Below are positions 22,877 to 64,000 of a stretch of DNA of 64,000 nt, piece by piece; within the stretch, counting starts at the first letter, position 1; each line of letters begins with the position of its first letter. The stretch lies in NCBI RefSeq assembly GCF_003703395.1, contig NZ_RDQN01000005.1, positions 62,001 to 126,000 on the forward strand. The letters are read 5' to 3'. The position numbers and the translations under genes were made by a program. Source of the stretch: Pseudoxanthomonas spadix (GTDB lineage: Bacteria; Pseudomonadota; Gammaproteobacteria; Xanthomonadales; Xanthomonadaceae). Below the pieces are notes generated by a model. The model searched no databases and had not been told where the DNA came from. It saw only the letters and a program-made list of their open reading frames with translations.

Positions 22877-22977
22877 GGTGTCTTTGACGGCCGCAGGCCG
22901 CGATCCTGAAGAGGAAATTTTCGGACGAGGTGGTGGGCAGCGTCGAGGACGCCTGGGGCAGGTGACGCTCGCTCGAT

Positions 22978-23879
22978 GGGCCGGGCACATCGAGAACGCT
23001 GCCTTGCCCCTGCCTTTCGCGCCTCAGCGCGAAGGGGAGGGTCTGGGAGGGGTGCTTTTGCTTTCGGCGCGCAGCACATGCAAGAGCGAGCAGATCAACA
23101 GCAACCCCTCCCCATCCCTCCCCTGCTTCGCAAGGGAGGGGGCCAAGCGGCTCGCTCGGTGGGCCGGGCACATCGAGAACGCTGCCTTGCCCCCTGCCTT
23201 TCGCGCGTCAGCGCGAAGGGGAGGGTCGGTGAGGGGTGCCTTTGCTTTCGGCGCGCAGCACATGCAAGAGCGAGCAGATCAACAGCAACCCCTCCCCATC
23301 CCTCCCCTGCTTCGCAAGGGAGGGGGCCAAGCGGCTCGCTCGGTGGACCGGCACATCGAGAACGCTGCCTTGCTCCCTCCCCTTCGCGCGTCAGCGCGAA
23401 GGGGAGGGTCTGGGAGGGGTGCTTTTGCTTTCGGCGCCGAGCACATGCAAGAACGAGCAGATCAACAGCAACCCCTCCCCATCCCTCCCCTGCTTCGCAA
23501 GGGAGGGGGCCAAGCGGCTCGCTCGGTGGGCCGGGCGGATCGAGAACGCTGCCTTGCCCCCTGCCTTTCGCGCGTCAGCGCGAAGGGGAGGGTCGGGGTG
23601 CCTTTGCTTTCGGCGCCGAGCACATGCAAGAGCGAGCAGATCAACAGCAACCCCTCCCCATCCCTCCCCTGCTTCGCAAGGGAGCGGGCCAAGCGGCTCG
23701 CTCGGTGGGCCGGGCAAATCAAGAACGCTGCCTTGCCCCTGCCTTTCGCGCGTCAGCGCGAAGGGGAGGGTCGGGGAGGGGTGCCTTTGCTTTCGGCGCG
23801 CAGCACATGCAAGAACGAGCAGATCAACAGCAACCCCTCCCCATCCCTCCCCTGCTTCGCAAGGGAGGGGGCCAAGCGC
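22978..23879. repeat. Tandem array of five ~182-bp repeat units between fliA and motC
   Basis: Five head-to-tail units start at 22978, 23151, 23335, 23518 and 23697, each beginning CTCGCTCG(A/G)TGG. Each unit has a palindrome with CGCGCGTCAGCGCG flanked by GGGGAGGG words, a middle part containing CACATGCAAGA(G/A)CGAGCAGATC, and an oppositely oriented arm ACCCCTCCCCATCCCTCCCC. So each unit is an inverted pair. The units differ by short indels and point changes. Open frames across it on both strands are products of the repeat period, not genes. Confidence 0.95.
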
Positions 23880-43533: not shown

Positions 43534-43589
43534 GGGTCAGGGGTCGGGTTGGGCTGGTGTGTCGGGGCGTGGGACGGGGACTGGTGACC

Positions 43590-43919
43590 CGGGACTCGGG
43601 ACTCGGGACCCGGGACCCGGGACCCGGGAAAGCGTTCTGCTGTGGTCTTGTTGTCTTTTTCTGTCGGGACTTGGGACCCGGGACCCGGGTCCCGGGGAAA
43701 GCGTGTCCTGCCGTGGCCTTCTCGTCTTGGCGATTCAAGCTGTGGCGTGCGTCTTTCGATGTTGTCTCTGCTTTCCCGGGTCCCGGGTCCCGGACCCCGA
43801 GTCCCGGGGAAAGCGTGTCCTGCCGTGGCCTTCTCGTCTTGGCGATTCAAGCTGTGGCGTGCGTCTTTCGATGTTGTCTCTGCTTTCCCGGGTCCCGGGT
43901 CCCGGACCCCGAGTCCCGG
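43590..43919. repeat. GGGACCCGGG-type repeat block between fliE and fliF
   Basis: The fliE-fliF gap is filled by words such as GGGACTCGGGACCCGGGACC in changing orientation, forming extensive palindromes (CCCGGGTCCCGGG). A 112-bp direct repeat (43691-43802, 43803-43919) shares a middle part containing GTGTCCTGCCGTGGCCTTCT. The last copy ends at the fliE stop codon. The same family occurs at the xerC start. No gene is seen. Confidence 0.9.
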
Positions 43920-48849: not shown

Positions 48850-49205
48850 TGGGTGCCACCCTCTCCCTTTCGCACCGCGAAGGGGAGGGCTGGGGGTGGG
48901 GTGCTCGGCGCTGCGCCCCCTCCCTTTCGCATCGCGAAGGGGAGGGCTGGGGAGGGGTGCTTGGCGCTGCGCCCCCTCCCTTTCGCATCGCGAAGGGGAG
49001 GGCTGGGGTGGGGTGCCCGGCGCTGGCCCCCTCCCTTCGCATCGCGAGGGGGAGGGCTGGGCTGGGGTGCTTGGCGCTGCGCCCCCTCCCTTTCGCACCG
49101 CGAAGGGGAGGGCTGGGGAGGGGTGCTTTTGCGGACGCAACAGCACCAAGCCAACAGCAACCCCTCCCCAGCCCTCCCCTGCTGCGCAAGGGAGGGGGCC
49201 AGGAG
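48850..49205. repeat. Array of five ~56-bp palindromic repeats plus one inverted arm
   Basis: Five tandem copies of a hairpin unit (CCCTCCCTTTCGCATCGCGA and its continuation GGGGAGGGCTGGGG), with centres near 48878, 48936, 48992, 49047 and 49102. They are followed by GTGCTTTTGCGGACGCAACA and a single inverted arm ACCCCTCCCCAGCCCTCCCC to 49199. The block fills the gap between the PilZ-like gene and the FliT-like gene. Open frames across it are artefacts of the repeat period. Confidence 0.93.
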
Positions 49206-56295: not shown

Positions 56296-57489
56296 TCAGT
56301 AACCGGCCACGGCGCGGTAACGCGCGCCGAGTGCGGCGAAGACCGAGGTGTCCACGCCACTGCCCTGGGCCGATGCAAGTTGCGTGCTGGACGCCGGCGC
56401 GGCCGCGGCCAGGCGCGCGTCGGAGCCATAGAGGGACGAAGGCACGCCGCCATCGGGCATGTTGGCCAGGGCGCGACTGATGGTGCTGCCATTGGCGATC
56501 GCGGTCAGCTTGGCCGCGTAGTGCGGATCGGTGGCATAGCCGGCGCGTTGCAGGGCCCGGGCGAAGCGGTGGGTGTCCTGGCCGGTGCCGCGCGCAGCGG
56601 CATAACGGTCGTTGCCCAGCAGCCGGGTGTAGTCGGCAAAGCTGTCGGCGGCCGAATCATAGGCGCGGAAGTTGGCGCGCTCGGCGTGGCGCACGCCGTT
56701 GACGTATTCGGTGGTGGCGACGTTGACCGAATCGCCGTCCCAGCGGCTGCCGGCTTTGATCCCGAACAGGTTGTTGGAGCTCACGCCCTGCTTGCCGGCC
56801 AGGCGCCGGCCCCAGCCGGTTTCCAGCGCGGCCTGAGCGACCAGCGCCTTGGCCGGCACACCGAGGGCCTGCGCGGCCTTCTGCGCATGCGGCCAGATCG
56901 ACTGGACGAAGGCTTCCGGGCTGCTGCAGTCCAGCTGGCAGTCGCCCGGGTCGAGCGGCTGCGGCGGTTCCGGCATCTGGGTCTGCATCGGTATGGCCTG
57001 CAGCGACACGCCCGCACTGGACGCGGCCAGCGGCAGGGTGCCACCGCTGGCCACCGGCACCGCGCTGGCGCTGGTCGGCGCGCGCAGTGGCAGCTGGCTG
57101 GCGGTGAACGGGAAGGCCCTGGCAGGGGCCTGCGCACGCAGCGGCATCGGCGCGCCGGCCGTGGCTCTGGCCGAAGGCAGGGTGGTGTCCACCGGCGTGG
57201 AGGCTTCACTGCCGCCGTTGTCGCCGCGCAGCTGCTTCTGGATGATCGCCTGCAGGCCCAGGCCGCGGCCCCTGGTCAGTTCCCGGGCCAGCTGCTGGTC
57301 GTACATGTCGCGGTAGCTGGTATCGCCCCCGCCCAGCGGATCGCCGCCAGTGGTGCTGCGCATCGACTTGACCAGCATCGAGGCGAACTGGGTCTCCAGC
57401 TCCTTCGAGGCTTGCTTGATCTGCTCGGGCGAAGCCGTATTCGACTTGCTTAGCGAGAGTGCCGTGGTGCCGGGCAGCTGCAGGGTCAT
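56296..57489 (-). CDS. flgJ: Peptidoglycan hydrolase FlgJ
   Basis: Rod-cap and muramidase protein of 397 residues. The N-terminal rod-binding domain (about 15-100: IKQASKELETQFASMLVKSMRSTTGGDPLGGGDTSYRDMYDQQLARELTRGRGLGL) is followed by a linker of about 100 residues, longer than usual, and a glucosaminidase domain (about 205-355) with the catalytic-Glu context ALVAQAALETGWGRR and SSNNLFGIKAG. It is split from flgI by a 2.5-kb repeat region but has its own sigma-54 promoter. Confidence 0.96.
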   Translation of the reverse strand: MTLQLPGTTALSLSKSNTASPEQIKQASKELETQFASMLVKSMRSTTGGDPLGGGDTSYRDMYDQQLARELTRGRGLGLQAIIQKQLRGDNGGSEASTPVDTTLPSARATAGAPMPLRAQAPARAFPFTASQLPLRAPTSASAVPVASGGTLPLAASSAGVSLQAIPMQTQMPEPPQPLDPGDCQLDCSSPEAFVQSIWPHAQKAAQALGVPAKALVAQAALETGWGRRLAGKQGVSSNNLFGIKAGSRWDGDSVNVATTEYVNGVRHAERANFRAYDSAADSFADYTRLLGNDRYAAARGTGQDTHRFARALQRAGYATDPHYAAKLTAIANGSTISRALANMPDGGVPSSLYGSDARLAAAAPASSTQLASAQGSGVDTSVFAALGARYRAVAGY

Positions 57490-57535
57490 GGCGGGAGGAC
57501 CAGATAAGGGCGCGGAAGGTGTGTGCTGTTCTCAG

Positions 57536-57550
57536 GCAAGTCCCGTGCCG
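57536..57550 (-). promoter_or_regulatory. Sigma-54 promoter of flgJ-K-L
   Basis: On the minus strand CGGCACGGGACTTGC matches TGGCAC-N5-TTGC with one mismatch. Transcription would begin near 57525, about 36 bases before flgJ. It lies between flgJ and the repeat array, so flgJKL need not depend on transcription through the array. Confidence 0.8.
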
Positions 57551-57639
57551 CGGCCTGTCGGATTTCCGTCGCAGGCGCGCGGCGCAGGCGTCTCCAAGGC
57601 CTGGACAACGACCCGGGAAGTCGACCCCACATCAGGAGC

Positions 57640-59940
57640 CCTCCTGCTTTTTGGCCCCCTCCCTTGCGCAGCAGGGGAGGGCTGGGGAGGGGTTGCTCGT
57701 GCTTTGGCTCTGCGCCGAACGCACAAAAGCGACCCCTCCCCGGCCCTCCCCTTTGCTGCGCAAAAGGGAGGGGGCGAAAAGCGGTCGCTTCGACTGCAGG
57801 CAGAGGCCTTGCCGATCCCGGCAGCCTGCGCCAGGCCCAGCCTTGGATGATCTCCAGCTCCGCGCGCAGGGCGCCGGCGCGCTTGAGCGCTTCCAGGATC
57901 GCCACCAGCTCACCAGGCGCCGGCTCCACGGCCACTGCTCCGCCCCCTCCCTTGCGCAGCAGGGGAGGGCCGGGAAGGGGTTGCTTGTGCTCTGGCTCTG
58001 CGCCGAACGCACAAAAGCGACCCCTCCCCGGCCCTCCCCTTTGCTGCGCAAAAGGGAGGGGGCGAAAAGCGGTCGCTTCGACTGCAGGCAGAGGCCTTGC
58101 CGAATCCCGGCAGCCTGCGCCAGGCCCAGCCTTGGATGATCTCCAGCTCCGCGCGCAGGGCGCCGGCGCGCTTGAGCGCTTCCAGGATCGCCACCGGCTC
58201 ACCAGGCGCCGGCTCCACGGCCACTGCTTGGCCCCTCCCTTGCGCAGCAGGGGAGGGCTGGGGAGGGGTTGCTCGTGCTTTGGCTCTGCGCTGGAAGCAC
58301 AAAAGCGACCCCTCCCCGGCCCTCCCCTTTGCTGCGCAAAAGGGAGGGGGCGAAAAGCGGTCGCTTCGACTGCAGGCAGAGGCCTTGCCGAATCCCGGCA
58401 GCCTGCGCCAGGCCCAGCCTTGGATGATCTCCAGCTCCGCGCGCAGGGCGCCGGCGCGCTTGAGCGCTTCCAGGATCGCCACCGGCTCACCAGGCGCCGG
58501 CTCCACGGCCACTGCTTGGCCCCTCCCTTGCGCAGCAGGGGAGGGCTGGGGAGGGGTTGCTCGTGCTTTGGCTCTGCGCTGGAAGCACAAAAGCGACCCC
58601 TCCCCGGCCCTCCCCTTTGCTGCGCAAAAGGGAGGGGGCGAAAAGCGGTCGCTTCGATGGTGCAGACAGAGGCCTTGCCGATCCCGGCAGCCTGCGCCAG
58701 GCCCAGCCTTGGATGATCTCCAGCTCCGCGCGCAGGGCGCCGGCGCGCTTGAGCGCTTCCAGGATCGCCACCAGCTCACCAGGCGCCGGCTCCACGGCCA
58801 CTGCTCCGCCCCCTCCCTTGCGCAGCAGGGGAGGGCTGGGGAGGGGTTGCTTGTGCTTTGGCTCTGCGCTGGAAGCGACAAAAGCGACCCCTCCCCGGCC
58901 CTCCCCTTTGCTGCGCAAAAGGGAGGGGGCGAAAAGCGGTCGCTTCGATGTTGCAGGCAGAGGCCTTGCCGATCCCGGCAGCCTGCGCCAGGCCCAACCT
59001 TAGATGATCTCCAGCTCCGCGCGCAGGGCGCCGGCGCGCTTGAGCGCTTCCAGGATCGCCACCGGCTCACCAGGCGCCGGCTCCACGGCCACTGCTTGGC
59101 CCCCTCCCTTGCGCAGCAGGGGAGGGCTGGGGAGGGGTTGCTTGTGCTCTGGCTCTGTGCCGAAAGCACAAAAGCGACCCCTCCCCAGCCCTCCCCTTTG
59201 CTGCGCAAAAGGGAGGGGCGAAAAGCGGTCACTTCGATGGTGCAGGCAGATGCCTTGCCGATCCCGGCAGCCTGCGCCAGGCCCAGCCTTAGATGATCTC
59301 CAGTTCCGCGCGCAGGGCGCCGGCGCGCTTGAGCGCTTCCAGGATCGCCACCGGCTCACCAGGCGCCGGCTCCACGGCCACTGCTTGGCCCCCTCCCTTG
59401 CGCAGCAGGGGAGGGCTGGGGAGGGGTTGCTTGTGCTTTGGCTCTGCGCTGGAGGCACAAAAGCGACCCCTTCCCGGCCCTCCCCTTTGCTGCGCAAAAG
59501 GGAGGGGGCGAAAAGCGGTCGCTTCGATGTTGCAGGCAGAGGCCTTGCCGATCCCGGCAGCCTGCGCCAGGCCCAGCCTTAGATGATCTCCAGCTCCGCG
59601 CGCAGGGCGCCGGCGCGCTTGAGCGCTTCCAGGATCGCCACCGGCTCACCAGGCGCCGGCTCCACGGCCACTGCTTGGCCCCCTCCCTTGCGCAGCAGGG
59701 GAGGGCTGGGGAGGGGTTGCTCGTGCTTTGGCTCTGCGCTGGAAGTACAAAAGCGACCCCTCCCCAACCCTCCCCTTTGCTGCGCAAAAGGGAGGGGGGC
59801 GAAAAGCGGTCGCTTCGCTGCTTATAGGTGCTTTGGCTCTGCGCTGGAAGCGCAAAAGCGACCCCTCCCCGGCCCTCCCCTTTGCTGCGCAAAAGGGAGG
59901 GGGGCCAAGAGCTGTCGCTTCGCAGGGGGGGGGGGGCTGC
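57640..59940. repeat. 2.3-kb tandem array containing seven copies of the flgI 3' end
   Basis: Seven units of about 289 bp (flgI-like segments start near 57850, 58141, 58428, 58717, 59009, 59298 and 59587). Each unit has about 90 bp nearly identical to the last 30 codons of flgI ([20 protein letters not shown]), about 45 bp like the sequence directly after the flgI stop, and an inverted pair of CCCTCCC-type hairpin arms. The three units next to flgI end the segment in TAA; in the four distal units that codon is CAA. A further partial unit (59825-59915) has only the hairpin arms. Long open frames through it are not genes. Confidence 0.95.
59925..59936. repeat. Run of 12 G next to flgI
   Basis: Homopolymer of 12 G (C on the flgI coding strand) about 35 bp after the flgI stop codon, at the junction between flgI and the repeat array. 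It is prone to slippage and to sequencing error. Confidence 0.8.
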
Positions 59941-59969
59941 CGATCCGGGCAGCTTTCGCCAGCCCAGCC

Positions 59970-61082
59970 TCAGATGATCTCCAGCTCCGCGCGCAGGGCG
60001 CCGGCGCGCTTGAGTGCTTCCAGGATCGCCACCAGGTCGCCGGGCGCCGCCCCCACGGCGTTGACCGCGCGGACGATCGCTTCCAACGACGTGCCGCCCT
60101 GGAACATGAACATCTTGCCGCCGTCGGCGGTGGCGCTGACCGTGGATTGCGGCACCACCGCGGTCTGGCCGCCGCGGGAGAAGGGTTCCGGCTGGCTGAC
60201 CAGGTTGTTCTCGGTGATCGAGACGGTCAGCGAGCCGTGCGAGACCGCCGCCGGCAGCACCGAGATGTTGCCGCCCATCACCACCGTGCCGGTGCGGGCG
60301 TTGATCACCACCCTGGCCGCGGCCGCGCCGGGGCTGACGTCCAATGATTCGAGCTGGGCCATGAAGCCGATCCGGTTGCCCGGCGGGGCGGCGATCTGGA
60401 TCGTCACCGGGTCCACGGCCTGGGCCCGGCCGGCGCCAAAGGTGCGGTTGACCGCATCGACGATCCGCGAGGCGGTGGTGAAATCGGCCTCGTGCAGGTT
60501 CAGGGTGACCACGCCGGTGTCGCCGCCGCCGCCGGGGGCCGAACGCTCGACCGTGGCGCCGTTGGGGATGCTGCCGCCGTTGGGCGCATTGACCGAGATC
60601 TTGGAGCCGTCCCTGCCCGAGGCGCCAAAGCCGCTGACCACCAGCGTGCCCTGGGCCACTGCGTAGATCTGGCCGTCGGCACCGCGCAGGGGGGCCATCA
60701 GCAGCGCACCGCCGCGCAGCGAGCCGGCGTTGCCGATCGAGGACACGGTGACATCGATGGTCTGGCCGGGCTTGGCGTAGGGCGGCAACTCGGCCTGGAT
60801 GGCCACCGCGGCGACGTTCTTCAGCTGCGGGTTGGTGCCCGGCGGAATGGTCACGCCCAGCTGGTCGAGCATGGTCTTCAGGCTCTGCACCGTGAAGGGC
60901 GTCTGGCTGGTGCGGTCGCCGCTGCCGTCCAGGCCGACCACCAGGCCGTAGCCGACCAGCTGGTTGCCGCGCACGCCGGCCACCTGGGCCAGGTCCTTGA
61001 TGCGTTCGGCGTGGGCCGGCGCCGGGATCAGCGCCAGCGCGGCCGCAAGGGACATGAAGGAACGGAACAGGGTCACGCGCAT
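59970..61082 (-). CDS. flgI: Flagellar P-ring protein FlgI
   Basis: Periplasmic P-ring subunit of 370 residues with a cleavable signal (ending [37 protein letters not shown]). The family motifs [13 protein letters not shown] and [37 protein letters not shown] are intact, as is the C-terminus [19 protein letters not shown] with stop TGA. The 3' end has been copied seven times into the adjoining array. It follows flgH by 11 bp. Confidence 0.97.
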
Positions 61083-63448: not shown

Positions 63449-63517
63449 GCACAGGGCCTTGCAAGGGCCGTGCCGCGAGGGACCTTCGGTGCACGGGAGT
63501 CGGCACGCGCGGCGCTG

Positions 63518-64000
63518 CCCCTGCCTTTCGCATCGCGAAGGGGAGGGCCGGGGAGGGGTGCTCGGCACTGCCCCCTGCCTTTCGCATCGCGAAGGGGAGG
63601 GCCGGGGTGGGGTGCTCGGCACTGCCCCCTGCCTTTCGCATCGCGAAGGTGGGGCCGGGGAGGGGTGCTCGGCACTGCCCCCTGCCTTTCGCATCGCGAA
63701 GGTGGGGCCGGGGAGGGGTGCTCGGCGCTGCCCCCTGCCTTTCGCATCGCGAAGGTGGGGCCGGGGTGGGGCGCTCGGCACTGCCCCCTCCCTTTCGCAT
63801 CGCGAAGGGGAGGGCCGGGGGTGGGGTGCTCGGCGCTGCCCCCTCCCTTTCGCATCGCGAAGGGGAGGGCCGGGGGTGGGGCGCTCGGCGCTGCCCCCTC
63901 CCTTTCGCATCGCGAAGGGGAGGGCCGGGGTGGGGTGCTTTTGGGGACGCGACGGCAACACCACCAAGCAACAGCAACCCCTCCCCAGCCCTCCCCTGCT
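63518..64000. repeat. Array of eight ~54-bp palindromic repeats upstream of flgF
   Basis: Eight tandem copies of the CCTTTCGCATCGCGAAGG hairpin unit (hairpins ending near 63540, 63594, 63648, 63701, 63754, 63807, 63862 and 63917), each followed by GGGAGGGCCGGGG and GGTGCTCGGC. The third to fifth copies read GAAGGTGGGGC. After the last copy comes GTGCTTTTGGGGACGCGACG and the start of one inverted arm ACCCCTCCCCAGCCCTCCCC, cut by the window edge. The organisation matches the array at 48.85-49.2 kb. Confidence 0.93.

Follow-up and report, generated by a model that had tools for sequence, protein, structure and literature searches.

A tandem array of flgI 3′ ends and inverted hairpin pairs between flgI and flgJ of Pseudoxanthomonas spadix, probably founded by duplication at hairpin repeats

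BIMEs of enterobacteria are inverted palindromes that alternate between genes, and their hairpin sequence differs from that of the array between flgI and flgJ described here. This array likewise has alternating inverted palindromes between genes, but, unlike a BIME, its unit holds coding DNA. Tandem REPIN clusters that include flanking sequence have been published, and the passages on these clusters describe two large arrays that are nearly identical at distant places in the genome (Bertels and Rainey 2011, PMC3116915). Compared with the clusters in those passages, the flgI array is similar in being built of tandem inverted hairpin pairs with their flanks, and different in that the flank includes a coding end and that no link to a RAYT was found in this genome. 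Clustered REPs tagged with GTAG or CGTC are treated in sections of Di Nocera 2013 (PMC3733652); unlike the REPs in those sections, the flgI array carries neither tag. Relative to published REP-type arrays, the coding ends and an ectopic copy of exact units are unusual. Our literature search found no report on gene ends in REP-type arrays, and we do not claim priority.

We analyzed a 64-kb stretch of the genome (hereafter the window), on whose minus strand an intact flgI encoding the P-ring protein (59970..61082; PF02119, E = 1.2e-137; stop codon TGA) is followed by a 2,480-bp gap and then by flgJ, with rod-binding and glucosaminidase domains (56296..57489; PF10135 and PF01832). The gap contains seven head-to-tail units, spaced 288–291 bp apiece, and a closing hairpin pair. 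Tandem Repeats Finder (TRF) reported the array at 57651..59822 with a period of 288, 7.5 copies, 96% match and a score of 3951, a periodicity far beyond chance; the copy number of seven is that of the assembly, a draft in 26 contigs. Read on the plus strand, each unit runs from hairpin A through a short spacer into hairpin B and on to the flgI 3′ flank and 90 bp of the flgI end, the core of B being the reverse complement of that of A. Eight A cores (57658..59705) start at 57658, 57946, 58234, 58522, 58812, 59103, 59392 and 59682, and nine B cores (57744..59901) at 57744, 58032, 58320, 58608, 58899, 59189, 59478, 59768 and 59873. The copies of the flgI end, all on the minus strand, lie at 57843..57932 (u1), 58132..58221 (u2), 58420..58509 (u3), 58709..58798 (u4), 59000..59089 (u5), 59289..59378 (u6) and 59579..59668 (u7). 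At the position of the stop codon, u1–u4, far from flgI, read CAA and u5–u7, near it, read TAA (TTG and TTA on the plus strand), against TGA in native flgI. Thus, the sevenfold, hairpin-containing array of the flgI end, the length of about 90 bp and the division into three near TAA and four far CAA units, all named in the original prediction, were borne out; the native TGA had gone unmentioned, and both a 105-bp side duplication of spacer and B hairpin beside flgI (59723..59923, detected by TRF) and two further units on contig C12 had been overlooked.

Since the genome is a draft and the units of u2 and u3 are identical over 288 bp, the assembly could contain fewer or more units than the chromosome. 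The other units differ from one another, and the C12 units sit inside a 560-kb contig, which makes an artefact of this kind highly improbable.

Folded as RNA, one unit was more stable than each of 200 shuffled sequences (z = −3.7), which fits the hairpins and tells nothing of function. A promoter or terminator role was considered and dropped: no promoter-like site was found at the array, and the single terminator-like site (plus strand, 57633–57646) lies outside it, whereas shuffled sequences average 2.8. Should transcription continue from flgI into flgJ, the array would form part of the operon transcript. The CAA units also leave open a 334-aa frame (57486–58490, minus strand) whose stop overlaps the flgJ start (ATGA); we rejected it as a gene because both strands of the array contain long open frames, and it is probably a chance product of G+C-rich DNA.

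We then compared the copies with native flgI column by column. The gene-derived part is the last 90 bp of the gene (59970–60059); eight of the nine columns beyond it differ from native flgI in all, or in six of nine, copies. Over these 90 bp, the seven array copies match native flgI at 81–82 positions and the flgI genes of ten relatives at 63–75; over 99 positions, the figures are 82–84 and 64–77. Each copy is therefore closer to native flgI than to any of the ten relatives, which supports an origin from the genome's own gene. A second flgI as the source was ruled out, as the genome holds a single full-length match, the nine short matches being the copies themselves. A weak 57-bp match on contig C21 lies in another ORF, presumably that of ribose-phosphate pyrophosphokinase, and was treated as chance. 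Within the collection searched, the most similar named FlgI is that of Luteimonas terrae (87%), which points to the Lysobacteraceae as the probable family. The flgI of L. terrae, together with those of six other relatives, ends in TGA; the three relatives sharing 92% FlgI identity (G004, G009 and G017) have TAA.

The junction between flgI and flgJ was next examined in related genomes. As anticipated, the two genes are neighbors there: a flgJ match was also present within a 4.8-kb stretch in all 26 loci fetched by the flgI end. In G004 and G017, a single A–B pair separates the two genes, matching the array in position and orientation, with no second flgI end; unduplicated counterparts of the array thus exist in related genomes. 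In G009, the gap is about 170 bp and contains neither an A–B pair nor a second flgI end; because this genome is equally close by FlgI, the age of the pair is uncertain. Within the array, the junction of successive units reads 90 bp of flgI, then CACTGCT, then hairpin A; part of this is similar to what lies outside the first A. Such an arrangement is expected after a single contiguous stretch has been duplicated in tandem, but the microhomology at the junction comes to a few bases at most, which counts against this account. Separately, runs of a 7-bp GGGATTC/GGGAATC-type repeat lie between flgJ and the A–B pair in both relatives (about 1100–1290 in L112 and 1110–1170 in L111) and differ in length between G004 and G017.

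Taken together, these comparisons make it very probable that the flgI array is an ordinary tandem duplication at hairpin repeats whose founder was then multiplied. An ancestral pair of G+C-rich hairpins would have stood between flgI and flgJ before the split from the two sister species, and one stretch, extending about a dozen bases beyond hairpin A at one end and 90 bp into flgI at the other, would, judging by collinearity, have been duplicated head to tail, leaving a complete flgI at its own end. The order and direction in G004 and G017 match the array unit; the segment that separates hairpin B from flgI in these genomes could not be aligned by eye to the flank of the unit, so the exact ancestral stretch is an inferred one. 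The noncoding spare copy would then have gathered changes and been multiplied to seven, presumably as the near-identical repeats underwent unequal exchange or replication slippage, a process that may also have shuffled variants among units. The original prediction had suggested that the end of flgI might have been captured and amplified. Its amplification of flgI-derived units holds, but capture is unneeded, because the unduplicated flgI–(A–B)–flgJ order in G004 and G017 lets tandem duplication explain the unit.

The divergence of the units bears on how the founder was multiplied. Counting differences without gaps, the nine copies (the seven array units plus c1 and c2 at C12) differ from one another at 0–15 positions and from the native segment at 30–36 of 220–221. 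Being alike yet far from the native sequence, they point to one founder that was amplified later. The division into near TAA and far CAA units had been taken to suggest stepwise, directional growth outward from flgI, and the array had been named as a possible reservoir for recombination into the gene. This single character does split the array in two, but the differences from native, from the far to the near end, are 30, 33, 33, 32, 33, 36 and 33, with no gradient, and the sole identical pair, u2 and u3, is on the flgJ side. Furthermore, in a four-gamete test restricted to two-state, gap-free columns, 16 of 28 site pairs failed for the full set of nine copies, 13 of 28 when the seven units of the array were taken alone, and 8 of 10 when native flgI was included. 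The failing pairs among the copies all link gene-end columns (125–221) to spacer columns (266–286), so the failures are not independent and may reflect one or a few exchanges, or recurrent change. At alignment column 187, u1, u4 and c1 share the native base against all other copies, the TAA units included; this split nests within the CAA group when the copies are taken alone and conflicts with the TAA/CAA division once native flgI is added. Exchange or conversion among units thus fits these patterns better than directional growth, recurrent change being a possible contributor.

Nor did flgI itself bear the mark of such a reservoir. At four sites of the 90 bp, all copies differ from native flgI and four outgroups agree; the native gene keeps the outgroup base at three of these, where all copies changed, and has alone changed at one. 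The outgroups are mixed at three further sites. In this 90-bp comparison with four outgroups, native flgI shows no sign of a copy-derived base, and nothing points to a role of the array for the gene. Outward growth with storage for flgI is accordingly hard to credit, and the array leaves the understanding of the flagellum unchanged.

Beyond the array, the 90-bp segment recurs at a single further locus of this genome, with two units, and not at many loci, in keeping with the original prediction. The insert on C12 is 578 bp long, in the order B, flank, gene end, A and spacer, and both of its borders fall at one repeat point, just before the foot of hairpin B. It differs little from the array units: c2 has one difference from u2 and u3, and c1 has 4–5 from c2, u2, u3 and u4 and 7–11 from the other four copies, so the C12 copy is probably recent. 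It is flanked on one side by a C92 peptidase family gene and on the other by one that encodes a peptidoglycan-binding domain. Of 37 other genomes of the genus, 6 contain the C92-type gene, and no empty C12 site emerged from these six loci, in which the DNA beyond the opposite border of the insert has no blastn match. By eye, the peptidoglycan-binding gene beside the copy (L009 7042–7845, G000:C12) seems 5′-truncated relative to its L178 homologue.

Tandem duplication alone does not give two units at C12; under the preferred duplication account, they would have been copied there afterwards by some route. One candidate route is that pieces of exactly one or more units leave the array, either as circles or through cuts at the hairpin foot, and insert elsewhere. 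We regard this as unlikely; if true, a gene 3′ end would become a dispersed element, and the C12 copy, exactly two units opened at the base of hairpin B, would be one such event. With its well-defined borders, the ectopic copy offers a place where the route of repeat dispersal could be tested.

The exact 578-bp length and the shared border position also suit a different origin, in which the flgI end was captured by a mobile REP/REPIN-like hairpin element that depends on a Y1 transposase for its movement, and the resulting composite now travels as an element. No direct repeat adjoining the insert is visible by eye, the genome has seven Y1_Tnp matches, six of them above the cut-off, and a second array in the window has also been partly copied elsewhere. 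In this second array (22967–23878), an A–B pair is amplified about five times in a 183-bp unit upstream of a gene that we take to be motA-like. Its partial copy (C16:4008–4334) ends at another repeat position than the C12 piece, however, and the flgI units have reached one ectopic place only. Neither GTAG nor CGTC occurs on either strand of 57640–59930, and, in flanks of up to 1.5 kb per side, CCCTCCC/GGGAGGG is absent for six of the seven Y1 matches in this genome, the seventh having one lone CCCTCCC in a flank cut by the contig end. Capture by a mobile element is therefore quite improbable.

The same observations bear on classification. This genome matches the pattern CCCCTCCC-N-GGGAGGG 22 times in the forward and 23 times in the reverse direction (one hairpin may score on both strands), against 0 and 1 for a backwards control, and among 38 genomes of the genus, 32 have matches; the hairpin arrays inspected for this point lie between genes. 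In these respects, and in the inversion of its two palindromes, A and B, which form a single pair in G004 and G017, the array agrees with REPs and REPINs as repeated intergenic palindromes. Because the tag is missing and no RAYT flanked by array-type palindromes was found in this genome within up to 1.5 kb per side, we do not file it as REP/REPIN, although it works like a REP-type cluster.

Finally, we surveyed the window and 85 loci (L240–L242 left out) with TRF at a score of at least 150 and a period of at least 90, and obtained 11 distinct arrays if the side duplication is scored as part of the main one; L224 and L226 look like one array in two genomes. Among the ten inspected (one at 43673 was left out), three carry a gene 3′ end, which is no rate because the loci were picked for hairpins: that of flgI, an Obg-type gene and a succinyl-CoA-ligase-type gene, the latter two presumably obgE and sucD. 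In G011, the Obg-type end contributes 24 bp with its stop codon to a 261-bp unit (L193), and the succinyl-CoA-ligase-type end contributes 27 bp, with the stop in one copy and a truncated further copy, to a 152-bp unit (L225). The Obg-type end is repeated in G036 too, where the succinyl-CoA-ligase-type unit is single, which gives a second case in which the single and the repeated state can be compared. No ectopic copies of either unit were found in G011 or G036 among the matches listed. These cases suggest that intergenic hairpin pairs can act as seeds for the multiplication of coding 3′ ends, of flgI here and of two genes in a congener.

The same 64-kb window also holds hairpin arrays that carry no gene end. 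At 48859–49128 and 63510–63939, A-type hairpins are repeated in units of 53–56 bp, about five and eight times, respectively, each array being followed by one inverted B-type hairpin. At 43577–43919, GGGTCCC/GGGACCC-type motifs are repeated in a nested fashion, with a 112-bp tandem unit, and belong to a different repeat family.
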